Assembly: GCA_944386525.1 (NCBI GenBank)
Contig: CALXBL010000005.1
Coordinates: 1-60,932 of the forward strand
Direction: 5' to 3'
DNA length: 60,932 bases
DNA from: an uncultured Ruminococcus sp.
GTDB taxonomy: Bacteria > Bacillota > Clostridia > Oscillospirales > Ruminococcaceae
The notes under the pieces are model-generated. The model had not been told where the DNA came from. It did not search any database and saw nothing but the letters and a program-made list of their open reading frames with translations. Every line of letters starts with the position of its first letter. Position 1 is the first letter of the stretch. A program made the position numbers and the translations under genes. Shown here in pieces: positions 7,697 through 58,457 of this stretch.

Positions 7697-10027
7697 ATGG
7701 AAAATAATGTATTCGATCCGCAGACTGTCTTGTGGTATAAGCAGCCGGCTGCCGATTTTAACCACGCATTGCCTGTTGGAAACGGCAGGATAGGCGGAAT
7801 GGTATACGGCGGAACAAGGGAGGAGCGTATAAGCCTAAACGAGGATTCTGTTTGGTCGGGTGGCAAGCGTGAGCGAAACAATCCTGATGCACTTGAAGGG
7901 GTGAAGGAAATACGTCAGCTGCTCCGTGAGGAGCGCATTCCCGAAGCTGAAAAGCTTGCATTTGAGAAGATGCAGGGCGTAACGCCAAACAGCCGTCACT
8001 ATATGCCTTTGGGCAATCTTGCAATAAAGATGGAGTTTGAGGGCAAGGCGAAAGAATACGTGAGAAGCCTCGATCTTAAAACTGCAATAGCGTCAACCCA
8101 GTTTACTGCCAATGAAATAACATACAGACGAGAGGTCTTTGTATCGGAACCTGACCGTGTAATGGCAGTACACATTACAGCAAGCGAGCCTGGAAAGGTG
8201 AACATCCGTGCGAATATCGACGGACGTGACGACTATTATGACGACTGCCGCCCGTGCAGAGAGAACGCCATACTCTACAACGGCGGAACAGGCAGCAAAG
8301 ATGGTATCTTTTTTGCGGCAGTTCTTGCCGGAACTTCTGTTGGAGGCAGAGTGTATACTCTCGGCGGACAGCTTGTGGCTGAAAATGCAGACGAGGTGAC
8401 ACTTGTCATGTCAGTGGGCACAAGCTTTTATCATGGAGACAGCTTTGAGGATTCTGCGCTGCTTGATGCAGAATATGCCTCTGAGTGTTCATATGATGAG
8501 CTTATGTATCGTCATATCAGTGACTATCAGGAACTGTTTGATCGTGTAAAGCTTGAACTGGAGGACAACAGTGATGGGGGAAACGTACTCCCAACAGATG
8601 AACGTCTTGAGCGTCTCCGTGGAGACGAGGGCGACTATAAGGAGTGCAAGCGTTCTATTTTTGACGCTCAACTCACTACGCTTTATTTTAACTACGGACG
8701 CTATCTTATGATATCGGGCAGTCGTATTGGAACACAGCCGCTTAATCTTCAAGGCATATGGAATGAGGATATGTGGCCTGCATGGGGCAGCAGATATACA
8801 ATAAATATAAATATCCAGATGAATTACTGGCCGGCAGAGGTATGCAACCTGTCGGAGTGCCATATGCCGTTGTTTTCTCTTATCGAGAGAATGCGTGAGC
8901 CGGGCAGAAAGACAGCCCGTGAAATGTACGGCTGCCGTGGCTTTACGTGTCACCACAACACCGACATCTGGGGCGATACTGCACCTCAGGATCTGTGGAT
9001 GCCTGCGACAATATGGCCTATGGGAGCAGCGTGGCTTTGTCTGCATATATTCGAGCATTATCTCTTTACAGAGGATAAGGGCTTTCTTGCGGAAAAGTAC
9101 GACACCATGAAGGAGGCAGCCCTGTTTTTTGTTGATTACCTTATGGAGAACGATCAGGGCCAGCTTGTTACAGGACCGTCTGTATCGCCGGAGAACACAT
9201 ATCGAACGGTAAGCGGTACTGAGGGAAGTCTCTGCATTGGACCTACAATGGATACGGAGATAATAACAGTCCTGTTTAATAATGTCATTGAAAGCACGGA
9301 GATATTGGGCGAGGATAAGGAATTTGCAGATAAGCTCCGTGAGATACTTGCAAAGCTCCCGCCGCTTAAAGTTGGCAAGTATGGACAGATACAGGAGTGG
9401 GCTGTGGACTATGATGAGGTTGAAGTGGGACATCGACACATATCACATCTGTTTGCACTTCATCCGGCGAATCTCATATCTCCATCAAAGACGCCATATC
9501 TTGCCAAGGCTGCAAGGGCTACTCTTGTTCGACGTCTTATTCACGGCGGAGGTCACACTGGCTGGAGCAGAGCCTGGATAATGAATATGTGGGCACGTCT
9601 TTGTGACAGGAATATGGCTTATGAAAATATGCGTCAGCTTTTGGCGAATTCCACAAATCCAAATATGCTTGACTCACATCCGCCGTTCCAGATCGACGGC
9701 AACTTCGGCGGCACTGCGGCAGTAGCTGAATGCCTTCTTCACAGCCACAACGGCGAGCTGCATCTTCTTCCGTCACTACCTGAGCCGTGGAAAAACGGCA
9801 GTATAACCGGACTCTGCGGCAGAGGCGGTTTTGAAGTCAGCCTTGAATGGAAGGACGGCAAGCTGGTTGGGGCAGATATACTCTCAAAGAACGGCAATAC
9901 TTGTGTAGTAAGATGCAGTGAGCCTGTAAGCGTAAGCTGTGATGACGGGGTTGCTCAGGCAAAGACCGATGGCAGTGTTATTTCATTTGACACTGAGCCG
10001 GGTCATATTTATTATTTAAAGGTTTAA
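7697..10027 (+). CDS. GH95 family glycoside hydrolase (probable 1,2-alpha-L-fucosidase or alpha-L-galactosidase)
   Basis: A 776-residue protein without a signal peptide, so it probably acts in the cytoplasm on imported oligosaccharides. The N-terminal [20 protein letters not shown] and [18 protein letters not shown] segments, [12 protein letters not shown], the [11 protein letters not shown] acid-residue region and [18 protein letters not shown] are hallmarks of GH95, an inverting (alpha/alpha)6-barrel family that removes terminal fucose or L-galactose, for example from xyloglucan. The length is normal. The start follows AGAGGAG. The GH26-like lipoprotein gene begins 19 bases after the stop, so the two form an operon. 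Confidence 0.94.
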
Positions 10028-30182: not shown

Positions 30183-31754
30183 ATGAACGATTATGAGAAC
30201 AATAATAATGTAAATAATACATCAGACGTTTCGGATGGCTCCGGTAACTACAGCAGCGGTGCCGAAAACAACACGAGCACCGGTAATTCCTATACAGATT
30301 ACAGAAGCGGCTATTACCGCAATACAAATCCGCACCAGGATGAACCGATCGGTCAGAGAAACAGCTATTCAGGAAACTACACGGGATATACCAATAAGAC
30401 CGGAAGCGAAAATGGCTATAATTATGTGAATTACTATAACACAACTCCGGCAGTTGAGCCTGAGAAGAAGAAAAAAGGCAAGAAAAAATTATTGAAGATC
30501 ACAGCCTGTGTTACAGCAATTGCACTTGTTATTGGAGCCTCATTTGCAGGTGGCTACTTTATGGGTGGAGATGATCCCGACTCACCGGAAAAGGTTCCTG
30601 TGGCTGGCAGCAGCGAAACAGGCGAGGAATCGTCAGATGAAAGCGCCGAGACACAGCAGGCTGTAGATACAACGGTCGAGTCACAGCCAAGTCTTATCGA
30701 CCTTGCTTCACGTGAAGATGCGATCACAGTCCCGGAGATCGTTGAAAAGATTAGTCCTTCAGTTGTGGGCATTCAGGCAACATATGTAGTCCAGACAGAG
30801 TCCAGTTCTCCTTCCGACTTCGGCTTCGGATTCGGATATTATGGCTGGGGCAACAACAACGATACTCAGTCTCAGGAGGCTGTTGCTACCGGTACAGGTG
30901 TGATAATGTCGGAGGACGGATATATTATTACAAATGCACACGTTGTGTATGATACCACATCAGGATATGGGCTTGCTAAGTCTGTGGAAATCCAGATGGC
31001 AGACGGCGAAACGATATATCCGGCTGAAATAGTGGCATATGATGTGGAAACTGATCTTGCAGTGCTGAAGGTTGACCAGACAGGACTTACTCCTGCTGAA
31101 TTTGGCAATAGCGATGAATGCCAGGTGGGTGAGCTTGTAGTTGCTATCGGTAATCCGCTGGGACTTGAACTTCAAAATACAGTTACCTGCGGTATCATCT
31201 CAGCACTCAACCGTGAAGTTACCATCAACGACAAGGAAATGACCCTTATCCAGACTGATACAGCTATCAACAGCGGTAACTCAGGCGGTCCCCTTATAAA
31301 TAGTGCAGGACAGGTTATTGGAATAAACTCCGCTAAAATGTCCTCCAGCTATTCATCAAACTCAGCAACTATCGAGGGAATAGGCTTTGCTATCCCGATA
31401 ACAGAGGCAAAGGAAATAATCGATGACCTTATCACTTATGGATATGTGACCGGCAGACCTCAGCTTGGCATAACTTGTCAGGATGTATCTGAGACTGTAT
31501 CACAGGCTTACAACATTCCCGTAGGTTCATATATAATAAGTGTGACCGAAGGCGGTGCTGCTGACAAGGCGGGACTCCAGATACAGGACGTTATCATCGC
31601 CATAGATGGCAATACCATCACAACTACAGAAGAGCTTAACGATTACAAAAATGAACACGCCGCAGGCGAACAGGTAGTTCTTACAGTAGTGCGTTCCGGA
31701 CAGACTCTTGATATACCGATAACACTTGAAGAAGCTGTGGCATCTGCCGATTAA
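30183..31754 (+). CDS. htrA: HtrA/DegP-like membrane-anchored serine protease with PDZ domain
   Basis: A 523-residue surface quality-control protease. The Asn/Tyr-rich cytoplasmic N-terminus (about 90 residues) is followed by one membrane helix (ITACVTAIALVIGASFAGGYF), a chymotrypsin-fold domain with the triad His253 (NAHVV), Asp291 (ETDLAV) and Ser367 (NSGNSGGPL), and a C-terminal PDZ domain (RPQLGITCQDV to TLEEA). The ATG at 30183 follows AAGGAAGA. The frame is open further upstream, but that part has no ribosome site and overlaps a TATAAT at 30108. A terminator follows. Confidence 0.94.
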   Translation: MNDYENNNNVNNTSDVSDGSGNYSSGAENNTSTGNSYTDYRSGYYRNTNPHQDEPIGQRNSYSGNYTGYTNKTGSENGYNYVNYYNTTPAVEPEKKKKGKKKLLKITACVTAIALVIGASFAGGYFMGGDDPDSPEKVPVAGSSETGEESSDESAETQQAVDTTVESQPSLIDLASREDAITVPEIVEKISPSVVGIQATYVVQTESSSPSDFGFGFGYYGWGNNNDTQSQEAVATGTGVIMSEDGYIITNAHVVYDTTSGYGLAKSVEIQMADGETIYPAEIVAYDVETDLAVLKVDQTGLTPAEFGNSDECQVGELVVAIGNPLGLELQNTVTCGIISALNREVTINDKEMTLIQTDTAINSGNSGGPLINSAGQVIGINSAKMSSSYSSNSATIEGIGFAIPITEAKEIIDDLITYGYVTGRPQLGITCQDVSETVSQAYNIPVGSYIISVTEGGAADKAGLQIQDVIIAIDGNTITTTEELNDYKNEHAAGEQVVLTVVRSGQTLDIPITLEEAVASAD

Positions 31755-31811
31755 GCTCTAACACTAACCAAGCAGACAACTTATCTTCATACATTCTCCT
31801 TATTATTTCCG

Positions 31812-31860
31812 TAAGAGGAGCTGGTGCAGTAAAAACTGTATCAGCTCCTCTGCGGTTTTT
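31812..31860 (+). terminator. Terminator of htrA
   Basis: A long imperfect stem (AGAGGAGCTGGTGCAGT with ACTGTATCAGCTCCTCT) around AAAA, followed by a T run after GCGG. Confidence 0.8.
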
Positions 31861-31898
31861 GGGTATTACTATTATATAATAGTAATATGATCCGGTGC

Positions 31899-31926
31899 AC
31901 CAAGGGACGTGATTTTTCATAGAATG
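31899..31926 (+). promoter_or_regulatory. Possible sigma-K-type promoter of dpaA
   Basis: AC at 31899-31900 and CATAGAATG at 31918-31926 sit at the spacing of the Bacillus sigma-K consensus (mACm, 16-17 bases, CATANNNTA), with one mismatch at the last position. In B. subtilis the dipicolinate synthase operon is read by sigma-K in the mother cell. Assignment by pattern only. Confidence 0.35.
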
Positions 31927-31969
31927 GAAAGAGACCGGAAGGATCATTATACAGAACGGAGCTGGTATT

Positions 31970-32722
31970 ATGGGAAGAAAGGATCTGCTTATAGCGGGCG
32001 GCGACAAGCGAATGAAGTATGCCGGAGAGAAATTGGCGGATAAATATAATGTGAGCTATCTGGTGGAGACAGATGGAATGTATGATGTGATACTGCTGCC
32101 GCCTGTGTCAGTTGACAGCAGCGGCAGGCTCAATGCAGGTAACAGTAAGCTCAGTCTCTATGAACTTACAGACAGATTGAAGAAAGACGGAGCAGTGCTG
32201 TCAGGAGTAGATAAAGGACTCGTTAAAGACGAATGCAGAAAAAAAGGTATCAGATATGTTAACTATATGGAACTTCCGGAGCTTGCCCTTGCAAATGCAG
32301 TGCCAACAGCAGAGGCGGCAATAAAGATAGCCATAGAGGAGACAGAGCGTACAATCTGGCAGAGCCGTATCTTTGTTGCAGGATACGGAAAGGTAGGTTC
32401 AGTTCTCACAGAAAGGCTGCTTGCCTTGGGCGCAGAAGTCACAGCAGGAGCAAGGAAAGAATACGACAGAACAAAGATAAGAGTGGCAGGTGCACATCCG
32501 GCGGAATTGCCGCCGGATGCAGAAAGCCTGTTTGGAACAGATATAATATTCAATACAGTACCGGTGGAGATCTTCAGCACAGAACAGCTCAGGAAAACTG
32601 GCGGCAAGAGTGTGTATATAGAACTTGCATCAGCGCCCGGCGGAATAAGCGAGAAGGCTGCGCTTGAAGCAGGTTGCAGGTATGTGAGGGCACCGGGACT
32701 TCCGCCGCAAGTTATGGGTTGA
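31970..32722 (+). CDS. dpaA: Dipicolinate synthase subunit A, 5' part, interrupted by an inserted element
   Basis: DpaA (SpoVFA) with DpaB makes dipicolinic acid in the mother cell for spore heat resistance. This part has 250 residues, including the DpaA N-terminal domain and the Rossmann signature FVAGYGKVGSVLTERLLALG. Native sequence runs through YVRAPGLP (Pro245); the last five residues (PQVMG) and the TGA are encoded by the inserted element. The missing 30 C-terminal codons lie at 37422-37515, in phase. Joining 32703 to 37422 gives GLPGKVAPRTAGEII and a 275-residue protein of normal length. In the integrated state the product is truncated and probably inactive. Confidence 0.9.
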   Translation: MGRKDLLIAGGDKRMKYAGEKLADKYNVSYLVETDGMYDVILLPPVSVDSSGRLNAGNSKLSLYELTDRLKKDGAVLSGVDKGLVKDECRKKGIRYVNYMELPELALANAVPTAEAAIKIAIEETERTIWQSRIFVAGYGKVGSVLTERLLALGAEVTAGARKEYDRTKIRVAGAHPAELPPDAESLFGTDIIFNTVPVEIFSTEQLRKTGGKSVYIELASAPGGISEKAALEAGCRYVRAPGLPPQVMG

Positions 32723-32728
32723 CACATC
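32690..32728. other. attL of the dpaA element
   Basis: Bacterial half (GGGACT in dpaA), TCC core at 32701-32703, and element half ending in GTTGACACATC (32718-32728). The arm following the core is 25 bases long, matching the 24-base arm at the other end. Confidence 0.82.
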
Positions 32729-32854
32729 GGAAATAGAGGGAAAATATCATAAAAAATAAGATAAAAGCTGTAAAAATCAGATGCAGTTGTCAAAAAGCAC
32801 TAAAAAATAATGAAATATCACATCAGAAATTTAAAAAAAAATCATCCGTATCAC

Positions 32855-32883
32855 TTGACAATTGGACTGTAATATGTTAAAAT
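32855..32883 (+). promoter_or_regulatory. Sigma-A promoter for the element's cellulosome genes
   Basis: TTGACA (32855-32860), 17 bases, TAAAAT (32878-32883), with a ~160-base leader before the first gene. The stretch 32729-32854 is A-rich with no gene visible. This housekeeping-type promoter implies vegetative expression of the cargo. Confidence 0.85.
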
Positions 32884-33049
32884 ACTGTTGTAAATCGTTA
32901 ATTGGGCACATGCACCGTGTCCTGAAACAGATTTATCTGGTGTTCAGACATTGGCAGACGAGTCTGCTTGACATGAAGCAGAATAAAGCAATCACGTGTG
33001 CAAAGCGAATGGACGCAGAAAAATTTATAACGAAGAGAGGTAATTGGAA

Positions 33050-35065
33050 ATGAAGAAGGTTTTCAACAGAGTACTGGCTGCTGCGCTTGCTGTTCCTATG
33101 GTGTTCACTCAGGGCGTTATGGGCATCTCCGCAGAAGATACCGGCGCAAAGTCTCTTGGTATTAATTCATTTACATGGGTTGATCCTAAGGGCGGCGATC
33201 AGGCTGAGGCTGATTGGAACTCCAAGGTTCTTGCTATGACAATGAACATGGAGGGTACAAATAAGGAGATTTCTACAGCCGATGTTCTTGCTCTGATCCC
33301 ACAGACTAATTCATACGGCGTAATGCTTTATGAATTCCTGCAAGGTGCTCCTAATCCGGTTATGACAGTAAATGGCGGTGTTGTTACTATCACTGGTACT
33401 GCTGACATGACAAATTATGCAAACGACAAGATTTATTCCAAGGTCAACGAAGCTGCTGGCATGGAACTCACAATGACTGCATTCAATAAGACAATTGAAT
33501 ATAGTTTAACAGTTGACACAAGCGTGCTTGCAAGTGGTAAGACTCTGGATATTGTTCCCGTTGTAACAATTGACGGCACAACGATCGACCAGACAAATGC
33601 ATCAGACTACATCCAGAGCCTGGCTGATGAACTGGCTGCTGAGATTGCTTCTCAGGTAACAGTTGACGCTGATATTGAAGAGGCTATGACTGTTGAGATT
33701 ATCACAAAGCTTGAGCGTGCTGAATACTGGGCAGGCCGAGCAGAAGTTTTCGCTCGTACATGCTCTTACGACACAGCTGATGAAATGATGTCTGCTATCT
33801 CCAAGTTTGTTGATAGAAGAACAAATGTTTACAATTTCCCTGCATCTGTTGATGAGGCTGTTGCAAGACACGGTAAAGGCTTCAATGCAACAATCAACCT
33901 TGTGAACAGCATAGCAACAACAAGCGGCTATGTAATCGACATCACAGCTGATGACGTTGCTGATCTGGCTAAGTCCGGCTCCAACTTTGAAGTTGTAATT
34001 GCTGATGGCGTATACAACGTAACATTCACTATCCCGGATGCTGAGGCTGCTCAGGTTGAGGCTGAAGTGAACGCAAATCCTATTGTTGATGAGAATGGCA
34101 CTACATGGGTATATGGTTCTTCTGATAAGACTGTTGAATTTGAATTCACAACTGATGGTACTGTATACTACAACGTAACAAGAAATATCAATTACGTTGA
34201 TTCCGAGACAACAACAACTACTACTACAACTACTTCTGATACAACAACAACCACCACAACAACATCAGATTCAGGTACAACTACAACAACTACTACTGTA
34301 ACTGGCTCTGAAACAACAACAACTTCTGACTCAACAACTACAGGTTCAGAGACAACAACAACAACTTCTGATTCAACAACTACAGGTTCAGATACAACAA
34401 CAACTTCCGATACAACAACTACAACCACAACTTCAACAGCTGTTCCTGCTGATTTCGTTCTTGAAACAGTAGAAGTTGCTGCTAACAGTGGTTACTACTT
34501 CTCAGATGATGAGAATGCATTTGATCTTACATCTCTGATTGCTGATCTGACACTTGTTGGCAATATTGATGGCACAGTGCAGAACATCAAGATTTCTCCT
34601 CAGGATTATGCTGCATACCTGACACCTGAATATGCAACACCTGCTGAGTTCTTCAACGCTGTTGAAGGCACAACATACATTGCAGACACACTGGGCCTCA
34701 CATTTACAGCTCCTGCTGAGATGACTATAGCTGATGATGCTTCTACAGAAGTAACAGACCTGCCTATGATTTACATTGGTGTAAAGGGCGACGCTAATCT
34801 GGATGGTACAGTTGGCTTGGATGATGCAAGTGCAGTTCTGGCTTACTATGTAAACGCAGCAGTAGGCACAACACCTTCATTTACAACTGATGCTGATCTT
34901 GAGATTCTGGCATACTTCATAGCTGATATTGATACTGAGTCTTTAGCTGGTACTAACACAGAAACAGAAGTTATCTCAATTGATGATGCTGCATTCATTC
35001 TCAGTTACTATGCACAGTCTGCAGCAAGCATAGATCCTGATTGGGATACAATCATTGGCGCATAA
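33050..35065 (+). CDS. Secreted X-module/dockerin protein, CttA-like by architecture and context
   Basis: A 671-residue secreted protein. ATG at 33050 after GAGAGG; signal peptide to about residue 29 (GISAEDTG). Residues 30-380 form an unrecognised, probably beta-rich region, perhaps two binding modules. A Thr/Ser-rich linker follows (386-464), then a ~115-residue X-like module (FVLETVEVAANSGYYFSDD to MIYIGVKG) directly abutting a dockerin from Asp581 (GDANLDGTVGLDDASAVLAY, second loop ISIDDAAFILSYYAQ). In R. flavefaciens, CttA is a cellulose-binding protein with an X-dockerin that docks on the cell-wall cohesin ScaE, encoded next door. Here too a single-cohesin wall protein gene follows by 90 bases. 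Function is inferred. Codon use suggests high expression. Confidence 0.75.
   Translation: MKKVFNRVLAAALAVPMVFTQGVMGISAEDTGAKSLGINSFTWVDPKGGDQAEADWNSKVLAMTMNMEGTNKEISTADVLALIPQTNSYGVMLYEFLQGAPNPVMTVNGGVVTITGTADMTNYANDKIYSKVNEAAGMELTMTAFNKTIEYSLTVDTSVLASGKTLDIVPVVTIDGTTIDQTNASDYIQSLADELAAEIASQVTVDADIEEAMTVEIITKLERAEYWAGRAEVFARTCSYDTADEMMSAISKFVDRRTNVYNFPASVDEAVARHGKGFNATINLVNSIATTSGYVIDITADDVADLAKSGSNFEVVIADGVYNVTFTIPDAEAAQVEAEVNANPIVDENGTTWVYGSSDKTVEFEFTTDGTVYYNVTRNINYVDSETTTTTTTTTSDTTTTTTTTSDSGTTTTTTTVTGSETTTTSDSTTTGSETTTTTSDSTTTGSDTTTTSDTTTTTTTSTAVPADFVLETVEVAANSGYYFSDDENAFDLTSLIADLTLVGNIDGTVQNIKISPQDYAAYLTPEYATPAEFFNAVEGTTYIADTLGLTFTAPAEMTIADDASTEVTDLPMIYIGVKGDANLDGTVGLDDASAVLAYYVNAAVGTTPSFTTDADLEILAYFIADIDTESLAGTNTETEVISIDDAAFILSYYAQSAASIDPDWDTIIGA
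34206..34440 (+). repeat. Thr/Ser linker repeat (ACA-ACA-ACT and GGTTCAGA units)
   Basis: Low-complexity coding repeats with recurrent TTTTSDSTTTGSE-like units, two of them nearly identical (around 34320 and 34365). A likely O-glycosylated spacer between the N-terminal region and the X-dockerin. Confidence 0.88.
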
Positions 35066-35091
35066 TTGCATTTAGCAAAAGGTACGTGTAT

Positions 35092-35116
35092 TACCGGGTG
35101 TTATATACATCCGGTA
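35092..35116 (+). other. Intercistronic hairpin between the dockerin and cohesin genes
   Basis: TACCGGGTG and CATCCGGTA form a 9-bp stem with one wobble in the 90-base gap. There is no T tract, so it probably adjusts mRNA stability or the ratio of the two products rather than terminating. Confidence 0.5.
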
Positions 35117-35155
35117 GTATAAAATAAAATTTATATTTGAAAGGAAATATTTAAA

Positions 35156-36025
35156 ATGAAAACTACATTTAAGAAGAGCATGGCTGCACTTTCTGCAGCT
35201 GCTGTAGTAGCTGCTTCTGCAGCTGTATTCGCTGTTCCAGCTGACGCTGCTGCTGGTACAATCACAACTGGTACTGTAACAGTTACTCTCGACGAGCTGG
35301 CTGCTTCTGACTACATCGTAAGAGTTCCTATAACTCTTTCTGGTGCAGATCCTTTCTACTCTGTTGGTTTCGGTGTAAAGTATGACATGGCTCTTACATT
35401 CAAGGCTGGTACTAAGGGCGACATCTTCGGCGGTGTTCCGCTGAACGCTGATGGTTCAGTTCTGAATGAATTTGGTTCTCTGGAAGTAGCTGTTGGTGCA
35501 GCTAATAATGCTGATCTTGGTCTTTACTGGGTAGGCGCAGCTATCAGCCCGATCGGCGCTGACACTGCTCACGCTCCTGGCGATGGCACACTGTGGACAC
35601 TCGTATTTGAAGTTCCTGCTGATGCTCAGGCTGGCGACAGATACGACATCACAACTCTGCTCGAGTCCAACGGTACACCTGTTGAAATCAACAACGGTAC
35701 TGGTAAGGAAACTCCTGCTGTAGTAGATGGCGCTATCATCATCGAGGGTGCTGTAACAACAACTACAACAACTTCAACAACAACAACTACAACAACAACA
35801 ACTGAGGCTACAACAACAACAGCTGAGGCTACAACAACAACAGCTGAGGTTACAACAACAACAGCTAAGGTTACAACAACAGCTGAGGCTACAACAACAA
35901 CTACAACTGCTACATCTGGTAAGACTGAGTCTCCTAAGACAAGCGATGTACTGCCTGTAGCTGGCGCAGCTGCTGCTCTGGTAGTTATCGGTGGTGTAGC
36001 TCTGGTTGCTAAGAAGAGAAAGTAA
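35156..36025 (+). CDS. Cell-wall-anchored single-cohesin protein, ScaE-like
   Basis: A 289-residue surface protein: signal peptide to about residue 32 (VPADAAAG), one cohesin module (about 35-198; TGTVTVTLDELAASDY start, VGFGVKYDM and WTLVFEVP strands, VVDGAIIIEG end), a Thr/Ala linker (200-254), then a sortase-like motif SPKTSD (259-264), a hydrophobic helix and KKRK tail. In R. flavefaciens, ScaE is the single-cohesin anchor that attaches the cellulosome and CttA to the wall. The sorting motif departs from LPxTG (Ser for Leu). Its cohesin is similar to that in the LRR protein at 55461. Strong codon bias suggests high expression. It lies inside the dpaA element. Confidence 0.88.
   Translation: MKTTFKKSMAALSAAAVVAASAAVFAVPADAAAGTITTGTVTVTLDELAASDYIVRVPITLSGADPFYSVGFGVKYDMALTFKAGTKGDIFGGVPLNADGSVLNEFGSLEVAVGAANNADLGLYWVGAAISPIGADTAHAPGDGTLWTLVFEVPADAQAGDRYDITTLLESNGTPVEINNGTGKETPAVVDGAIIIEGAVTTTTTTSTTTTTTTTTEATTTTAEATTTTAEVTTTTAKVTTTAEATTTTTTATSGKTESPKTSDVLPVAGAAAALVVIGGVALVAKKRK
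35755..35912 (+). repeat. Thr/Ala linker repeat (GAGGCTACAACAACAACAGCT units)
   Basis: Tandem copies of an ~21-bp unit encoding EATTTTA or close variants (about 35812, 35830, 35848 and onward) link the cohesin to the wall anchor. Copy number could vary by slippage. Confidence 0.88.
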
Positions 36026-36069
36026 TTTCTCCTAAGAGTAATTAAAGCTCATACAGATTAACGTCTGAC

Positions 36070-36104
36070 AAGGCACCTCCCTTTTGGGAGGTGCTTTTTT
36101 TTTT
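36070..36104 (+). terminator. Terminator after the cohesin gene
   Basis: AGGCACCTCCC pairs with GGGAGGTGC(T) around TTTT and is followed by ten T. It separates the strongly expressed cargo from the recombinase gene 33 bases downstream. Confidence 0.9.
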
Positions 36105-36136
36105 CGTTTCAGCATAAAATCCACTGAGGTGGTAAT

Positions 36137-37396
36137 ATGTATGGCATTTATGCAAGACAGTCGGTAGAACGTCAGGACTCAATTTCCATCGAAATGCAGA
36201 TAGAACTTTGCAAAAAACGTCTGCCCACCGGTGAGGAGTGTGAGGTCTATACGGATCGTGGCTGTACCGGCACAAATACACGCCGACATGAATACAGACG
36301 CATGGTAGGTGATATACGTACCGGCAGGCTCAGTGGTATAATCGTCTATAAGCTTGATAGAATATCAAGGTCACTGTTGGATTTTGCACGTCTTTCCGAG
36401 GAGCTAAGTAAGCACCATGTAAAGCTGTGTTCCTGCAGCGAGGAACTGGATTCAAGCTCACCTATGGGGCAGATGATAATCCGACTTCTGATAATGTTTG
36501 CAGAGATGGAGCAGCAGATGATATCACAACGCATAAGGGATAACTACAGAGCACGTGCCGAAAAATGTCTTCCTCTGGGAGGAGTTCCGCCATACGGCTA
36601 CAACAGGGACTGGACTGTAAATGCAAAGGAAGCTGAAAATGTGGAGCTGATATATCGTCTTCTGCTTAGAGGAATGAGCCTTGATTCCATAGCAAGGAAA
36701 ATGAACAGTAAAGGAATAGAGTCACCCTCTGGAGGCAAATGGAGCGGTGTTCAGATAAGTCGGCAGCTTAAAAATATTGCCTATGCAAAGCCCGATGAAA
36801 GCTTGCTCTCGTGGCTCAAAACTGCTGGCTATCAAATTCTTGGCAGTGAGACAGACTATATAGCGCAAGGCGGCTGCATAAAGGTTGACAGGCAAGGCAG
36901 CAAATACGCCGCAAAATCAGCTCATGAACCGATAATCACAAGTGAAAAATGGCTTGCCGCACAGGATATACTGCTTAGCCGTAAACCCTCTGCGAACGGC
37001 GGAAGCGGCAGTACATCATGGCTGCAAGGGTTTACATTGTGCGGAAAGTGTGGCAGTTCCTGCTATGTGCGCAGTAATGGGAAGGGATATCCATATATAT
37101 ATATGGTGTGCCGTGGGAGGAGGTCTGGCATTTGCAGCGGACTGAAAGCGCTGCGAACTGAGCAAATCGAAAAAGCAGCTGGTAAAGCTCTGGAAAAGGA
37201 GATAAAACGCCTTTTAAGACCCTGCACACAAACCATCGACCGGGAACTTGCGGCTTTGTCTCAAAAACCGCACAGATCAGGTCAATTGGAAACTAACTTC
37301 GACAGAATGACGCTTGATCAGAAAAAGACTGCTGCAAGTCTTCTTATAAAAAATGTGGTAGTTACAGAGTCGGAAACAGTCATAATTTTCAGGTGA
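36137..37396 (+). CDS. Large serine recombinase of the dpaA element (SpoIVCA/CisA type)
   Basis: A 419-residue site-specific recombinase. The N-terminal catalytic domain has Ser9 in IYARQSVERQ, and YKLDRISRSLLDFA and EMEQQMISQRIRDNY follow. A recombinase domain (about 150-270: GVPPYGYNRDW, HEPIITSEKWLAAQDIL) and a zinc ribbon (LCGKCGSS to RRSGICSG) precede a short C-terminal helix. It is the same broad family as the B. subtilis skin recombinase, about 500 residues, and is somewhat shorter. GAGGTGG lies four bases before the ATG. It ends 22 bases before the right core site, as usual for integrases next to their attachment site. It is insulated from the cargo by a terminator, so its own promoter is likely; a CATAAAAT at 36113 is too close to the start to be convincing. 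Confidence 0.94.
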   Translation: MYGIYARQSVERQDSISIEMQIELCKKRLPTGEECEVYTDRGCTGTNTRRHEYRRMVGDIRTGRLSGIIVYKLDRISRSLLDFARLSEELSKHHVKLCSCSEELDSSSPMGQMIIRLLIMFAEMEQQMISQRIRDNYRARAEKCLPLGGVPPYGYNRDWTVNAKEAENVELIYRLLLRGMSLDSIARKMNSKGIESPSGGKWSGVQISRQLKNIAYAKPDESLLSWLKTAGYQILGSETDYIAQGGCIKVDRQGSKYAAKSAHEPIITSEKWLAAQDILLSRKPSANGGSGSTSWLQGFTLCGKCGSSCYVRSNGKGYPYIYMVCRGRRSGICSGLKALRTEQIEKAAGKALEKEIKRLLRPCTQTIDRELAALSQKPHRSGQLETNFDRMTLDQKKTAASLLIKNVVVTESETVIIFR

Positions 37397-37432
37397 TGTG
37401 TCAACACGACTCATACGCTCCAGGCAAGGTTG
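37395..37432. other. attR of the dpaA element
   Basis: Element half starting GATGTGTCAAC (37395-37405), 13 more bases, TCC core at 37419-37421, then dpaA sequence AGGCAAGGTTG. Confidence 0.82.
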
Positions 37433-37515
37433 CCCCCAGAACTGCCGGTGAGATCATAGCCGATGCCGTATGCCGGATTTTGGAGGATGACACACATGAA
37501 AACGCTTACAGGTAA
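37419..37515 (+). pseudogene. dpaA: dpaA 3' part, separated from the rest by the element
   Basis: Reads PGKVAPRTAGEIIADAVC and on to a TAA at 37513-37515, the conserved C-terminus of dipicolinate synthase A. It has no start of its own. It is intact in sequence and in the same phase as the 5' part, so the gene would be repaired by precise excision rather than being decayed. It overlaps the dpaB start by 20 bases, as expected for an original dpaAB operon. Confidence 0.88.
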
Positions 37516-38086
37516 GAGGATCGGCTTTGCAGTTACAGGATCCTTTTGTACCTTTAAAAAGGCATTTGCTCAGGCAGAGGCTCTTGTTCATCAGGGCGCA
37601 GAGCTGACACCTATTTTCTCAGCAAATGCAGCCGGAACCGATACACGTTTCGGCAAGGCGGCTGATCATATCCGCCGCATGGAGGAGATTGCTGGCAGGC
37701 AGGCGCTGCTTACGATATCCGACACAGAACCCCTCGGACCCAGGGATATGCTCGATGCAATAGTAGTTGCTCCATGTACGTCGAATACTCTGGCAAAGCT
37801 TGCACTCGGCATAGTAGATACCTCAGTGACAATGGCTGTAAAGTCCATGCTCAGAGGCGGCAAGCCAGTAATCCTTGCCGTTGCAACCAACGATGCCCTA
37901 AGATGCTCGGCAAAGAATCTGGGGTTACTCCTGAATGCAAAGAATTATTACTTTGTCCCCATAGGTCAGGATGCACCGGATGTGAAGCCATCTTCAATGG
38001 TCGCAGACTTCACTATGCTTCCGGAAACTGTCAGCTGCGCTCTGGAGGGAAGGCAAATTCAGCCTTTGATAACACATAAAGGTTGA
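37496..38086 (+). CDS. dpaB: Dipicolinate synthase subunit B
   Basis: A 196-residue flavoprotein-like subunit (SpoVFB) that works with DpaA to oxidise dihydrodipicolinate to dipicolinic acid during sporulation. KRIGFAVTGSFCTFKKAF is the flavin-binding-like opening, and VVAPCTSNTLAKLALGIVD and AVATNDALR are conserved. ATG at 37496 follows GGAGG with a nine-base gap and lies within the end of dpaA, so translation would normally be coupled. In the integrated state, transcription from the dpaA promoter must cross the whole element and its internal terminator. Confidence 0.94.
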   Translation: MKTLTGKRIGFAVTGSFCTFKKAFAQAEALVHQGAELTPIFSANAAGTDTRFGKAADHIRRMEEIAGRQALLTISDTEPLGPRDMLDAIVVAPCTSNTLAKLALGIVDTSVTMAVKSMLRGGKPVILAVATNDALRCSAKNLGLLLNAKNYYFVPIGQDAPDVKPSSMVADFTMLPETVSCALEGRQIQPLITHKG

Positions 38087-38122
38087 ATCCTTAAAAATAT
38101 TTTGGGAAAATATGAATGAATA

Positions 38123-38149
38123 ACCGCCTGACTCAAAGGGTCAGGCGGT
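38123..38149 (+). other. 10-bp hairpin just before the AEC gene ribosome site
   Basis: ACCGCCTGAC and GTCAGGCGGT form a perfect stem around TCAAAGG, ending four bases before AGGAGG of the next gene. No T tract follows, so it is not a standard terminator. Confidence 0.55.
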
Positions 38150-38164
38150 ATCAGGAGGTTTTAT

Positions 38165-39097
38165 ATGGCACAGATCATTGCAAATCAGGCGTTTATAATG
38201 CTGCTGCTCAATCTGGTGGGAGTGCTTGTTTATCGACTGAACATAGTAACCAGAGACGGAGGACGTCAGCTGTCATCATTGGTGCTGGAGATCGTCACAC
38301 CGGTGCTTGTTGTTCACGCTTACATGGACGTGGAATTCAGCAAGCAGATGGCGGCAAATCTTATGTGGACATTCGGACTTGCTGCCGTATCGTACATTCT
38401 GACTATCATCGATTCTAAAATTTTCATCAGGGACAAGGGGAACAGACTTGTAGCGATCGAGCGTTTTTCCGCAATATACAGTAACTGCGGATTTATGGGT
38501 ATACCACTTGCGAATGCGCTTTACGGATCGACTGGGGTGCTGTATGTAACGGCATTTCTGACGGTTTTCTTTTTCTTTTCATGGACTCATGGTATAATGA
38601 TGCTTTCCGGAAAGCGTGATATAAAGGCAGTGCTCAAAGTATTGCGTTCTCCAACGGTAATTGCAATAGCTATAGGTCTTATAATGTATTTCACGCAGTT
38701 CAAGCTGCCGTCGGTGATATCAGAAACTATGAACTATGTGGCATCGCTAAACACGCCGCTCGCTATGATAGCATCAGGCATAAGCGTTGCACAGGCTAAT
38801 ATAATAGGGGCGCTGAGGAGTCCACGGGTATACTGGATATCTGCCTGCAGGTTAATCATACTGCCTATGCTTACGATGGTATTGTGTCTTTTATGTCCGT
38901 TTATATCGGAAGATGTGCGGATAGTAACGCTGCTTCTTTCAGCAGCGCCGTCTGCAGCAATGTGCACACTGCAATGTCAGAAAATGGGACTCAACGATGT
39001 GTATGCATCTCAAATATTTGCAATGACAACCGTAGCTTCAATGGCAACACTGCCTGCTCTTGTTAAAATTTTTACAATGTTATTGGATATTTTGTAA
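38165..39097 (+). CDS. AEC-family (auxin efflux carrier type) transporter
   Basis: A 310-residue membrane protein with about ten helices in two inverted halves. The N-terminal LLLNLVGVLVYRLNIVTRDG, central YSNCGFMGIPLANALYG (with the conserved Asn, Gly and Pro of the crossover) and late LLLSAAPSAAMCTLQCQKMG mark the AEC family. Bacterial members export malate, lactate or other carboxylates. The substrate is not identifiable. AGGAGG lies six bases before the ATG. It follows dpaB by 79 bases, and the hairpin between may separate them. Confidence 0.9.
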   Translation: MAQIIANQAFIMLLLNLVGVLVYRLNIVTRDGGRQLSSLVLEIVTPVLVVHAYMDVEFSKQMAANLMWTFGLAAVSYILTIIDSKIFIRDKGNRLVAIERFSAIYSNCGFMGIPLANALYGSTGVLYVTAFLTVFFFFSWTHGIMMLSGKRDIKAVLKVLRSPTVIAIAIGLIMYFTQFKLPSVISETMNYVASLNTPLAMIASGISVAQANIIGALRSPRVYWISACRLIILPMLTMVLCLLCPFISEDVRIVTLLLSAAPSAAMCTLQCQKMGLNDVYASQIFAMTTVASMATLPALVKIFTMLLDIL

Positions 39098-53991: not shown

Positions 53992-54112
53992 TTTGTTTTC
54001 ATTGACTTTTAGGTTTGATTGTGGTAACATATAAAAAGAAGGATGTTTGGTTGAAAGTGCTGAATATATATGTCTTTTCAAGAGAATCTCATATGGAAAG
54101 GAGGCATTGCTT

Positions 54113-55429
54113 TTGCATATGAATTATAATCTGCTAAAAAAAATACTTATATATATATTAACAGGCGTTCTTATTTTTATGCTGACGATGAACGCAGGAG
54201 TCGTGGCGGATGATACGGAAGAATATCTTTACAATGGAAATATATACTATCAGATAAACGAATATGGGAATGTAGTTATAACTCGTTCACGAGCCTCGGT
54301 GACTGAAGCAGATATACCATCAGAGATTGACGGCAGGATAGTTACTGAAATAAAAGGCAGTGCCTTTCGTGACAGAACACGTCTTATAAAAGTCATAATA
54401 CCCGATACAATAAAAACGATCGGAGATTATGCCTTTCACCAGTGCATAAGACTTGAAACAGTTGAGATACCTGATTCAGTTGAATACATAGGGTGGAATA
54501 TTCTTGAGAGTACGCCATGGCTTGAAAGTCAGCCGGAGGGCTGCGTTATAGCGGGAGACAATATCCTGATAGCATATACGGGCAGTGAAACTAATGTGGT
54601 GATACCATATGGAGTAAAGATAATAGCCGGATGCGCTTTTGAAGGGTGTACTTCTATGATGTCCGTTGAGATACCTGAAACAGTGAGGGAGATAGGAGGG
54701 CTTGCATTCTCCGGCTGCACACAACTGACGGAATGCAATATACCTTATGGCACCGAGACAATAGGATCGTATGCATTTCACTGGTGCGCCGCACTACAGA
54801 AGGTGGATATAGCCGATAGTGTGACTACTATAGGAAACCATGCATTTGCCGGATGTTCAAGCCTTATTTCCATAAAGCTGCCAATGGGACTTCAGCGAAT
54901 CGAAACGGCAGCCTTTTATGAATGCTCCAGTCTGACTACGATAAATATACCTGGATCTGTTTCGGAGATATCAAGTCAGGCATTTTATAGGTGTGTTTCT
55001 CTAAGCGAGGTCACTTTGAATTCGACTGTAACTTCGGTGGGGACAGATGCATTTTCCGGCTGTTCGGGTATGCAGAGGATAGTTTTCTTTAACAGTGATT
55101 GTTTTATAGCAGATTCCGGTGCAACAGTTGATCCCAACGCAGTTATATACGGACTGCGTGAATCAACAGCCCAGAGATATGCTCAGAGTTATTCACGTCA
55201 GTTTGTACTTGCCGTGCCTATGGCAGGAGATCTGAATGAAGATGGTACAATAGATCTTGACGATGCGGTGATAATACTCGGTATATATGCAAATTCCGCA
55301 TCAAATGTGGCTTATGAAATAAGTGATTTTGAGCTGATTGCCGGCGATTTAGACGTCAATGGCAGTATCGGGATAGATGATGCCACAGAGGTTTTGAGGA
55401 TATATTCGCAGAGTGCAGTAAATCAGTAA
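54113..55429 (+). CDS. BspA-type leucine-rich-repeat protein with dockerin
   Basis: A 438-residue secreted protein. TTG at 54113, eight bases after AAAGGAGG, is the favoured start; the ATG at 54119 is the alternative. Signal helix ILIYILTGVLIFMLTM, then about 11 BspA/LRR_5 repeats (about residues 60-345; consensus IxxIGxxAFxxCxxLxxVxIPxSV), then a dockerin (GDLNEDGTIDLDDAVIILGI and GDLDVNGSIGIDDATEVLRI). LRR_5 proteins often bind host or microbial surface molecules. The gene is 31 bases upstream of a larger paralogue with an extra cohesin, and they are probably co-transcribed. Confidence 0.88.
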   Translation: MHMNYNLLKKILIYILTGVLIFMLTMNAGVVADDTEEYLYNGNIYYQINEYGNVVITRSRASVTEADIPSEIDGRIVTEIKGSAFRDRTRLIKVIIPDTIKTIGDYAFHQCIRLETVEIPDSVEYIGWNILESTPWLESQPEGCVIAGDNILIAYTGSETNVVIPYGVKIIAGCAFEGCTSMMSVEIPETVREIGGLAFSGCTQLTECNIPYGTETIGSYAFHWCAALQKVDIADSVTTIGNHAFAGCSSLISIKLPMGLQRIETAAFYECSSLTTINIPGSVSEISSQAFYRCVSLSEVTLNSTVTSVGTDAFSGCSGMQRIVFFNSDCFIADSGATVDPNAVIYGLRESTAQRYAQSYSRQFVLAVPMAGDLNEDGTIDLDDAVIILGIYANSASNVAYEISDFELIAGDLDVNGSIGIDDATEVLRIYSQSAVNQ

Positions 55430-55460
55430 TGCAATGAGTTGAAGTGAATGGAGTGTTTTT

Positions 55461-58457
55461 ATGAAAATAATACAGAAAGGAAAGCGAATGCTTGCAATTG
55501 CAGTAAGCGTGTGTCTTATGTGGATGACAGCAGCCGTTCAGTATGACAGCTTGCTTCATGCAGCAGCAGATGGGAGTAATGGCATAGTGTCTGACGGCGT
55601 TCTGAACTACCGTCGGACGGAGGGTATGAGTACGGTCAGTGTAGTGTGTGCAGATACGGAAATAGCAGGCAGTCTTGTGATACCGTCTGAGTATGATGGC
55701 ATGAAGGTAGTTGAGATCGAAATCGGAGCTTTTGCCGGTCAATCAGGTATAACTGATGCGGTAATTCCGGACACTGTACAGAAAATAGGCGCAGAAGCAT
55801 TTAAGGGCTGCAGCAGTCTGGAGACAGTGAGCCTTGAAAATACGCTTCAGTCAGTAGGTGCAGATGCGTTTGCTGAAACAGCGTGGAGTGCAGCACATTC
55901 AGAAGATCAGATGATGATAATGGACGAGATACTGCTTGTATCAGTTTCAGATTCCGCAATGAACATCGTGCTGCCGGATACGGTGCGTGTAGTCGCAGAC
56001 GAGGCGTGTATGGGGAATACGTCTTTGATGTCGGCTGAGCTTGCAGAGAACACGGGATATGTAGGCAAAAAGAGCTTTTTCGGCTGCAGTGCTCTGACAA
56101 GTGTGATAATTCCAAGTAATGTGAAGAATATTGATGATTATGCATTCGGAGAAAGTGCACTTGCCACAGTAGTGATCCCATCTACAGTTTTATCTATAGG
56201 CAAGGGAGCGTTTATAAGGTGTACGCAGCTTCAGCAGGTAACTATCCGTGAGGGACTTTTAAAGATCGGAAGCAGTGCGTTTTCCGAATGCACATCACTC
56301 AGGGAGATAACTGTTCCCGACAGCACAATAGTGATCGGAACAGCAGCGTTTAGTAAGTGTACGGGTATGCAGTATGCAGCTATCTTGGGAGGAATGACCG
56401 AACTGCCTGATGATCTGTTCAAGGACTGCACCAGCCTTTATAATGTTGTGCTGGACGGAGATATAGTTAGGATAGGCTCAGGTGCATTCAATAAGTGCAC
56501 CGCATTGCAGAGCGTCACACTCCCGGATACAGTGAAGTATATAGGCTCCGAGGCGTTTCAGTCATGCATGAGTCTGAGAAATGTAAATATACCTGAGAGT
56601 GTTATAGATATAGGCGTAAATGCATTTTTCGATACGACATTCTACAACAGTCTGCGTGCTTCCGACAGTGACAGTAGTTTCGTTATTTATGACGGCAGAG
56701 TTCTGCTTGGATATTATGGTGAGGATCAGTATCTACAGATACCCGATGGCATACAGGTAATAGGCGGAGCGGTATTTGCGGCAAATGAAACTATAAGTGT
56801 AATATGCCTGCCGGATACAGTCACTAGCATAAGCTCATATGCTTTCGATAATCTGTGGACTCTGGAGCAGGTGGTTAGCACAGGCAGTATAGAATACATT
56901 GGAGCCTATGCCTTCTGGGATTGCATATCACTCAGGGAAATGACTTTTCCTGAGGGAGTTGTTGAAATACAGGAGGGAACGATGTTCGGCTGCGAAAGCC
57001 TTGGCAGTGTGTTGGTAAGCAGTACGGTGGAGACTATATGTCAGTTTGCATTCAGCTATTCGGGGCTTGAAAGTATAGTTCTGCCTGAAACTGTATCAGG
57101 TGTAGAGAGCGGAGCGTTTGAGGGCTGCGGTCGGCTGGCAAAGATCAGGATAGAGAATCCTGAGTGCGCACTTGCGGCAGGCTGTATACCGGCAGAAACG
57201 GAGATATGGGGCTATGGAAATTCGACTGCGTATTATTATGCCAAGGAGCATGGAAATCCTTTTGTTGATATATCTAACTCCTACTCTTCAACAAGTACGG
57301 GTTCCGCCACAGCTACAACCAGTATGTCGGTTTTGTCAACAACGTCAAGCTCGTCGTCAATGACAACGACCACTGTAGCGACCTCAACGAGTGTAAGCAC
57401 ATCCAGCAATACTGTAAGCACAACTGTAACTACGGGTAGTGAAACATCTGCTGAGATAGGAACTCTTGTGGCAGGTACAGTGGAGATAAGCATTTCGGAG
57501 CTGGAGAATTCGGATTACAGTGTGGTAATTCCGGTGTCGGCAGAGGATACAGGAGGCTGGTATGCGTTGTGTTATGGTTTCTCCTATGACCCTGCAGTGC
57601 TTACAGCCGAAAGGGTGTATGTAAGTCCTGAAGCAGCCGAGGAGGTGGCAGCAGCCGAGGGTGAACTTAAAAATTTTCCTGTAATAAATGCGGAGAAGGG
57701 TATAGTATGGGATTCAGTGCTGCCAAGCGTATATGCGGGTGTAAGCTGTCCAGACGGCGTGTTTGCATATATTGAGTTTACGGTAGACCGCTGTGCAAAA
57801 CCAGGAGATGTCTTTGAAATAAAGCTTCTTGTGAACCACAACGACAACTATCAGGAGATCGAAACTGAACAAGGAGCTGGAATATGCACTCTTGTTGACG
57901 GAGCAATAATAATATCCGGCGGCTCGAATATTACCACAACTTCTACTTCGGCAACAACGACAACAACGACTGCGACAATGACAACAAATGAATCTACACG
58001 GACAACAACAATGACAACGACCACTACCACAACTGCACCTACATGGACGACGACAACAACGATGACAACAACTGCAACAACACCTACATGGTTAACAACG
58101 ACCACGACAACAATGACAACAAAGGAATCTACATGGACAACCACAACAATAATGATAACGACTACAACAACACCTACATGGACAACTATGACAACAACTG
58201 CCACAACAACGGAAAATGTTCCGGGTGATGTCAACGGAGACGGCAGTATAGGACTGAATGATTCATCATATATATTGAGCACATATGCTTTTATAGCTGC
58301 AAATATTTATGTGACGGATGAACAGGCAGAGTCAGCAGATGTGGATATGAATAGTGTTGTAGATCTTGATGATGCACAGATGCTGCTGAGGTACTACGCA
58401 GGCGTTGGAGCAGGACTTATAGACCAAAGCTTCGAAAAATGGCGTGATGCGCAGTAA
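55461..58457 (+). CDS. BspA-type LRR protein with cohesin and dockerin, a putative adaptor scaffoldin
   Basis: A 998-residue secreted protein. Signal peptide to about 33; about 20 BspA/LRR_5 repeats (70-605); a Ser/Thr linker (610-665); a cohesin (about 668-820: VAGTVEISISELENSDYSVV, LCYGFSYDPAVL, AYIEFTVD, TLVDGAIIISGG); a second, Thr-rich linker with ACATGG-containing repeats (823-918); and a dockerin (from 921: GDVNGDGSIGLNDSSYILST and SVVDLDDAQMLLRYYA). The cohesin is clearly like that of the wall anchor at 35156 (DYxVxxPVS, xxGFxYDxA, VDGAIII). With both module types, the protein can be docked and can itself recruit another dockerin protein. Confidence 0.9.
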   Translation: MKIIQKGKRMLAIAVSVCLMWMTAAVQYDSLLHAAADGSNGIVSDGVLNYRRTEGMSTVSVVCADTEIAGSLVIPSEYDGMKVVEIEIGAFAGQSGITDAVIPDTVQKIGAEAFKGCSSLETVSLENTLQSVGADAFAETAWSAAHSEDQMMIMDEILLVSVSDSAMNIVLPDTVRVVADEACMGNTSLMSAELAENTGYVGKKSFFGCSALTSVIIPSNVKNIDDYAFGESALATVVIPSTVLSIGKGAFIRCTQLQQVTIREGLLKIGSSAFSECTSLREITVPDSTIVIGTAAFSKCTGMQYAAILGGMTELPDDLFKDCTSLYNVVLDGDIVRIGSGAFNKCTALQSVTLPDTVKYIGSEAFQSCMSLRNVNIPESVIDIGVNAFFDTTFYNSLRASDSDSSFVIYDGRVLLGYYGEDQYLQIPDGIQVIGGAVFAANETISVICLPDTVTSISSYAFDNLWTLEQVVSTGSIEYIGAYAFWDCISLREMTFPEGVVEIQEGTMFGCESLGSVLVSSTVETICQFAFSYSGLESIVLPETVSGVESGAFEGCGRLAKIRIENPECALAAGCIPAETEIWGYGNSTAYYYAKEHGNPFVDISNSYSSTSTGSATATTSMSVLSTTSSSSSMTTTTVATSTSVSTSSNTVSTTVTTGSETSAEIGTLVAGTVEISISELENSDYSVVIPVSAEDTGGWYALCYGFSYDPAVLTAERVYVSPEAAEEVAAAEGELKNFPVINAEKGIVWDSVLPSVYAGVSCPDGVFAYIEFTVDRCAKPGDVFEIKLLVNHNDNYQEIETEQGAGICTLVDGAIIISGGSNITTTSTSATTTTTTATMTTNESTRTTTMTTTTTTTAPTWTTTTTMTTTATTPTWLTTTTTTMTTKESTWTTTTIMITTTTTPTWTTMTTTATTTENVPGDVNGDGSIGLNDSSYILSTYAFIAANIYVTDEQAESADVDMNSVVDLDDAQMLLRYYAGVGAGLIDQSFEKWRDAQ
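57943..58213 (+). repeat. Thr-linker minisatellite in the LRR-cohesin-dockerin gene
   Basis: Degenerate repeats of an ACA-CCT-ACA-TGG-ACN core embedded in ACN codons, with at least five TW or STW units. The spaced Trp in a Thr tract is unlike the other linkers here. Confidence 0.85.

Follow-up and report, generated by a model that had tools for sequence, protein, structure and literature searches.

A three-gene serine-recombinase element splits dpaA in Ruminococcus and resembles a skin-like sporulation intervening element

How could dipicolinic acid be made by a bacterium whose dpaA gene is cut in two by 4.7 kb of other DNA? The question is raised by a contig of an uncultured Ruminococcus sp. 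(GCA_944386525.1, CALXBL010000005.1), analysed here as a single stretch of 60,932 nucleotides that we call the window. Its dpaA is interrupted at the codons for LPGK by an element of 4,718 bp, measured from core to core, which holds three genes: one CttA-like, one ScaE-like and one for a large serine recombinase. The element is best read as a skin-like, vertically inherited intervening element and we put at roughly 0.8 the probability that it is excised by its own recombinase in the sporulating mother cell, rejoining dpaA and allowing dipicolinic acid synthesis. The excision, its timing, its restriction to the mother cell and the loss there of the adhesion-type genes are what we infer from the split itself, the anatomy of the attachment (att) sites, their conservation throughout the genus, selection on the 3' part of dpaA, the co-descent of recombinase and host genes and a conserved promoter-like box.

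The anatomy of the locus is given in Table 1. The 5' part of dpaA matches DpaA_N (PF16924, E 4.5e-10) and the PRK08306 DpsA model (E 8.7e-49, below that model's cut-off) but the unjoined frame runs after LP into a five-residue tail, PQVMG, and stops at 32720-32722. The early stop, with the missing C-terminus lying beyond the element, had been claimed by the first-pass annotation and is found in the sequence exactly so. Reading across the core restores a DpaA of 275 residues that ends at TAA 37513-37515, which agrees with the length proposed earlier. The annotation had also seen TCC at both junctions; it does stand there in the window (32701-32703 and 37419-37421), though as a shared core only CC is common to the 13 genus loci readable at both ends. 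Each 11-bp arm lies 14 bases from CC, such that 11+14+2+14+11 gives a 52-bp attP centred on the dinucleotide, as had been described, and a perfect 11-bp inverted repeat so symmetrically placed would arise by chance with a probability of about 5e-6, allowing for 20 offsets. The recombinase gene ends inside the right attP arm and its stop codon (37394-37396) does lie 22 bases before the right TCC. The 3' part of dpaA, placed by the annotation directly before dpaB, adjoins that gene but in fact overlaps its start codon. An Rfam search of 31500-38500 returned nothing above gathering scores.

Table 1. Features of the split dpaA locus, in window coordinates.
Feature	Coordinates	Strand	Basis or remark
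CATAGAATG, sigma-E/K-like -10 box upstream of dpaA (predicted)	31918..31926	+	activity inferred
dpaA 5' part	31970..32703	+	244 codons and first two bases of Pro codon 245; open frame ends 32722
left core dinucleotide CC	32702..32703	+	first two bases of LPGK Pro codon; same codon in 13/13 genus loci with both ends
left attP arm GTTGACACATC	32718..32728	+	gapless alignment in 13/13 loci
CttA-like secreted protein, X-module-dockerin-like C-terminus	33050..35065	+	profile A3 against PDB
ScaE-like cohesin, cell-wall-anchor-like C-terminus	35156..36025	+	profile A2 against PDB
CATAAAAT, sigma-E/K-like -10 box (predicted)	36113..36120	+	at -24 of recombinase start
large serine recombinase, 419 aa, shortened coiled-coil segment	36137..37396	+	Pfam matches, alignment A1
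right attP arm GATGTGTCAAC	37395..37405	+	sequence inspection and genus alignment
right core dinucleotide CC	37420..37421	+	genus alignment
dpaA 3' part	37422..37515	+	last base of Pro codon, 30 residues, stop
dpaB, dipicolinate synthase subunit B	37496..38086	+	TIGR02852 241.9 bits, above cut-off of 229

The same split is found across the genus. Sixteen genomes were searched for the recombinase and for dpaA, and the loci were then compared. A recombinase and dpaA share a contig in 11 of them, that of the window among these, and 15 have dpaA interrupted at the same codon: 13 loci can be read at both ends (two of them, G010 and G013, each on two contigs), in G012 the two dpaA parts are on separate contigs, and in G003 only the 5' part is seen, at contig ends. 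The split is carried by Ruminococcus callidus ATCC 27760 (G004, with match figures the same as those of NZ_KI260335). The core CC makes up the first two bases of the LPGK proline codon in all 13 loci and the rejoined frame is open and DpaA-like in every one (13/13, L063 being without the usual stop). This recurrence of split, att sites and seamless frame supports the earlier reading of a skin-like intervening element, with excision itself a prediction. Decayed halves in sister strains had been set beforehand as grounds for refutation; instead, the dpaA-linked recombinases of the genus are open frames with the catalytic serine in 13 of 14 cases, the exception being G007. In the sixteenth genome, G002, dpaA is whole and the recombinase search gave no match at E <= 1e-20.

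Such a distribution could also be left by an insertion that is vertically inherited but no longer regulated, dpaA being dead and dipicolinic acid either made by another enzyme, of which EtfA is a known example, or not made at all. To the credit of this explanation, excision is unobserved, the element offers no candidate directionality factor and G007 shows that the arrangement can decay. We nonetheless judge it unlikely, since most of the genus recombinases are open as described, dpaB is intact in the window, and purifying selection acts on the separated 3' end of dpaA in its reading frame: across 12 species (L063 left out) the ratio of nonsynonymous to synonymous polymorphism (pN/pS) is 0.34 for the 25 codons that start at the core, whereas the two alternative frames give 1.14 and 1.5, and the 25 dpaA codons before the core give 0.57. 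The attP arms argue the same way, matching at 15.1 of 25 positions within species versus 12.2 of 25 between species, a value reached by 0 of 100,000 permutations and significant (p 9e-4) when shuffling is confined to the two clades. Sliding the arms by 1 to 6 bases lowers the matches from 134 to 32-66, and the outermost columns (24-30) hold no excess (p 0.72). Co-variation between arms some 5 kb apart would be hard to explain were they not read together by a symmetric protein. Distances between the recombinases also correlate with those between the DpaB proteins (Mantel r 0.88, p 2.5e-4, 12 species), and for DpaA the correlation is r 0.91. Judged by the agreement of distances, the selection on the 3' end and the co-variation of the arms, the split arrangement looks old and selected; these three results, with the conserved -10 box described below, are why programmed excision is favoured over a decayed insertion.

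Of the spore genes, SpoIVA was detected in 14, SpoIIID in 12 and SpoVAC/AEB in 15 of the 16 genomes. The recombinase of G007 is dead, with frameshifts and leucine at the catalytic serine; the G007 assembly, 99% complete, is the only one of the 16 with no SpoVAC/AEB match and its SpoIVA frame has 305 codons, versus 494-511 in the others. The coincidence of a dead recombinase with the lack of a SpoVAC match fits the direction of the hypothesis, as a single case.

When might the recombinase be made? In 11 of the 14 genus loci the box CATANNNT precedes the recombinase start at -24 to -26 (nine at -24, two at -25 or -26); it resembles the -10 consensus of sigma-E and sigma-K. As a control, it occurs within -45..-17 in 3 of 47 related recombinases without dpa genes in their flanks. 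CATANNAT is comparably placed before dpaA in 7 of 14 upstream regions (the window, L062, L064, L066, L073, L074 and L075), mostly in the window's clade; it is absent from that position in the six callidus-clade loci and altered to AATAGAAT in L068. The R. callidus element (L060, 4762-6237) has its recombinase on the opposite strand relative to the other genus elements read, and there a CATACCCT box is kept at -25.

With a -10 box like those of sigma-E/K promoters, the recombinase would likely be silent in growing cells; DpaA would be 250 residues long and lack its final 30, and the CttA-like and ScaE-like genes would stay in the chromosome. In the mother cell the recombinase would be made and would recombine attL with attR across the CC core, placing an intact dpaA beside dpaB and releasing a circle, carrying attP and the adhesion-type genes, that would perish with the mother cell. 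In the forespore, which would be unchanged, the element would remain and so reach the offspring.

A number of results weigh against this mechanism. No excised junction was observed in the sequence data examined. A near-identical joined DpaA was not found among 120 listed of 2,099 matches for the species of the window, nor among 120 listed of 213 for R. callidus, though clusters built at 90% identity could hide one in either case. The element was searched for a small conserved reading frame that might serve as directionality factor, and the candidates overlap the three genes or the left leader, none being convincing. In the window's clade alone the arm test is weak (p 0.10). The recombinase box is absent in 3 of the 14 genus loci and, among dpa-type recombinases outside the genus, it is found in 1 of 12 (L095, of unknown site; L091, L106 and L113 were unscored). 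No -35 element was recognised upstream of it, and its closeness to the start codon means that the transcript would start at about the ribosome-binding site, with a leader of about 10 bases. The upstream regions of spoIVA hold the CATANNNT box in 0 of 10 loci and those of spoIIID, also in 10 loci, have boxes at no fixed place, so neither gene helps as a promoter control. Finally, in G002 a ScaE-like gene is located outside an intact dpaA, which begins 221 bp downstream of the end of that gene with no recombinase (L075, G002:C49, oriented 1-1360); judged from this genome, an intact dpaA does not part the cargo from the dpa locus.

What, then, does the element carry? Pfam by itself is too weak to name either cargo gene (the CttA_N match is weak, in 8 of 9 CttA-like members, and no Pfam cohesin match is listed for the ScaE-like gene) and it was profiles against the PDB that named both. 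Profile A3, of the CttA-like proteins, matches X-module-dockerin (XDoc) chains of CttA (4iu2_B, E 3.2e-15; 4wkz_A, E 4e-15), and profile A2, of the ScaE-like proteins, matches ScaE (2zf9, E 2e-10) and a ScaE-type cohesin (4iu2_A, E 4.4e-8). The recombinase has Resolvase, Recombinase and zinc-ribbon domains (PF00239, E 1.4e-29; PF07508, E 4e-17; PF13408, E 4.4e-8) and its catalytic Ser9 is invariant across the 13 rows of alignment A1. The coiled-coil segment of the zinc domain is longer in most of these rows and is shortened in the window (36137-37393) and in G006 (L062, 4055-5320). The coiled coil of serine recombinases has a role in directionality, and its shortening might relax the need for a directionality factor. 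Pfam and family searches found no phage or transfer gene among the three genes of the window's element.

Both cargo queries are matched by all 10 other single-contig elements of the genus, some over partial length, and by the broken-contig elements of G013 and G010; G012 shows only the end of the ScaE-like gene and G003 is unreadable. A leader of about 330 bp (window 32723-33049) separates the left core from the CttA-like gene, and a spacing of 327-395 bp from core to frame start is seen for this gene in 10 of the 11 single-contig elements. In Ruminococcus flavefaciens, CttA and its partner ScaE hold the cell to cellulose (PMC4266597). It is the solved XDoc of CttA and cohesin of ScaE from that system that the cargo profiles match; unlike there, the gene pair lies here inside an excisable-looking element, and an adhesion role is suggested by the profile match.

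Cargo that resembles surface adhesion proteins, together with precise joined forms of dpaA in sister lineages (below), is what one would expect if random phase variation in growing cells switched the adhesion genes, dpaA being a mere landing site. We find this scarcely credible: the gene interrupted is a spore gene, the box has the look of a sporulation promoter, and the R. callidus cluster P0125 gathers 1,125 member sequences under a split representative, with no separate joined cluster among the matches listed.

Comparison of dpaA in sister strains for empty sites, which the first-pass annotation had put forward as a check, did reveal a seamless joined DpaA in sister lineages. The DpaA tree was built from 51 5' parts (the 13 loci, G002 and 37 proteins chosen from those listed) and has 7 label changes. 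The window's clade comprises 23 split and 2 intact rows; the latter, P0006 and P0121 (290 aa), are precisely joined and nest within starred split clades. Joined forms in the callidus clade are P0134, P0136 (LPAK), P0160 and P0170. These rows represent either precise loss in the past or excised copies. P0006 and P0121 were considered as excised copies; among matches at E <= 1e-60 no split protein more than 70% identical to P0006 was found, and the two may equally be element-free lineages. A further row, P0159, kept in the tree as intact, joins an N-terminal half equal to P0152 with the C-terminal half of another lineage and a joined dpaA end, and is likely an assembly chimera.

Related elements occur beyond the genus. 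A scan of genome contigs with the recombinase alignment gave 177 relatives, of which 80 loci were kept, 24 with dpaA or dpaB in the flanks. In five (L106, L113, L128, L132 and L149) both dpaA parts flank the element, split at the same codon, and the cargo is an ABC importer, probably for sugars, a LacI-type regulator and a LytR-CpsA-Psr protein, named by Pfam in L106 and L149 and by eye in the others. A quick recombinase tree of the window and 75 of the 80 relatives places 28 rows in one starred set, comprising all 23 dpaA-site rows, 2 near dpaB and 3 of unknown site, within which the site labels require several changes. At the level of the family, 299 of 396 genomes have a dpaA match; among the 150 dpaA rows listed, 7 end by residue 270 (the split codon of the query being 267), 5 of these with a recombinase on the same contig, and G303 is a further split case outside those rows. 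With so few early-ending rows, the split appears uncommon outside the genus. In viral contigs, 18 recombinase relatives were found, the top-ranked at 36% identity, none (0/18) with dpaA or dpaB in the flanks examined, and the attP-junction pattern was not found there.

That one codon hosts differing cargo in other genera, that dpaA is seamless in several lineages and that the DpaA tree needs those 7 changes might all suggest that a mobile integrative element reached this dpaA site by horizontal transfer on repeated occasions, with excision serving transfer and not sporulation. We hold this to be very unlikely. Within the genus the recombinase distances track DpaB and one kind of cargo is present wherever it can be read; the window's element has no transfer or phage gene among its three, and none of the 18 relatives on viral contigs has dpaA or dpaB in the flanks examined.

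How does the element compare with known systems? vfbin is the spoVFB (dpaB) element of Bacillus weihenstephanensis, whereas the element of the window sits in dpaA and is thus no vfbin. Nearer to vfbin is L109 (2462-10731), in which an element appears to split dpaB near its start with dpaA intact, on the weak evidence of an 11-residue match (E 0.16); L110 (around 8001-9840) is perhaps another dpaB-inserted element. Intervening elements are known in sigK, spsM, spoVFB, spoVR, gerE and yabG (PMC5025042, PMC5595907, PMC6957869, PMC10747680, PMC4191935). In the sigK gene of Bacillus subtilis and Clostridium difficile, skin is likewise a serine-recombinase element that splits a mother-cell gene, att recombination rebuilding the frame (PMC5025042). 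Skin elements are prophage-like and lie in a sigma factor gene, and prophage-like intervening elements carry phage genes; here there are three non-phage genes, in a biosynthetic gene, near-fixed in the genus. In common with skin are a spore gene with both parts intact and in phase, a serine recombinase, and a shared core with inverted-repeat arms. In B. weihenstephanensis an intervening element lies in this same dipicolinate synthase operon (PMC6957869), and the recombinase of vfbin is expressed at sporulation (PMC5595907). The latter source describes gin, in gerE of B. cereus ATCC 10987, which shows that a non-phage element can be an intervening element; gin has 28.6 kb, three recombinases and a 42-aa factor, GirX, whereas here there is one recombinase and no candidate factor. 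A literature search by title and the start of the abstract, with subscription papers mostly and preprints wholly outside it, found no element in dpaA or in a Ruminococcus spore gene. The kind of element is thus already known from skin, vfbin and gin; the dpaA site, the near-fixation in a genus and the growth-gene cargo are new as far as we have searched.

The host organisms belong to the Ruminococcus callidus group of gut bacteria. In the papers cited, sporulation intervening elements are prophages, prophage relics or an island; the present one is minimal, has three genes, is near-fixed in a gut genus and, with its co-varying arms and surface-gene cargo, looks domesticated. We tentatively propose, as a possibility that we would not rate as high as even, that the whole genus houses a cellulose-adhesion pair in a spore gene as a domesticated, vertically inherited switch between growth and spore. 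By one recombination, with no separate directionality factor, the mother cell would gain dipicolinic acid and lose the adhesion genes for good, while the spore would keep both, and sister genera would use the same dpaA codon for an ABC importer. The element allows two questions to be put to the test: do these Ruminococcus sporulate while dpaA is split, and does the mother cell, as a bacterial soma, shed growth genes by programmed DNA loss?

Genes akin to the cargo occur elsewhere. At 54047-58457 the window encodes two more proteins, of 460 and 998 aa, that are dockerin-bearing in appearance (by eye), the larger matching the ScaE-like profile at 57444-58085. In another locus (L178, G000:C10:34067-34660), a second ScaE-like cohesin of 253 aa stands beside a 365-aa surface-type protein, and the copy in the element is therefore not the sole one in that genome.

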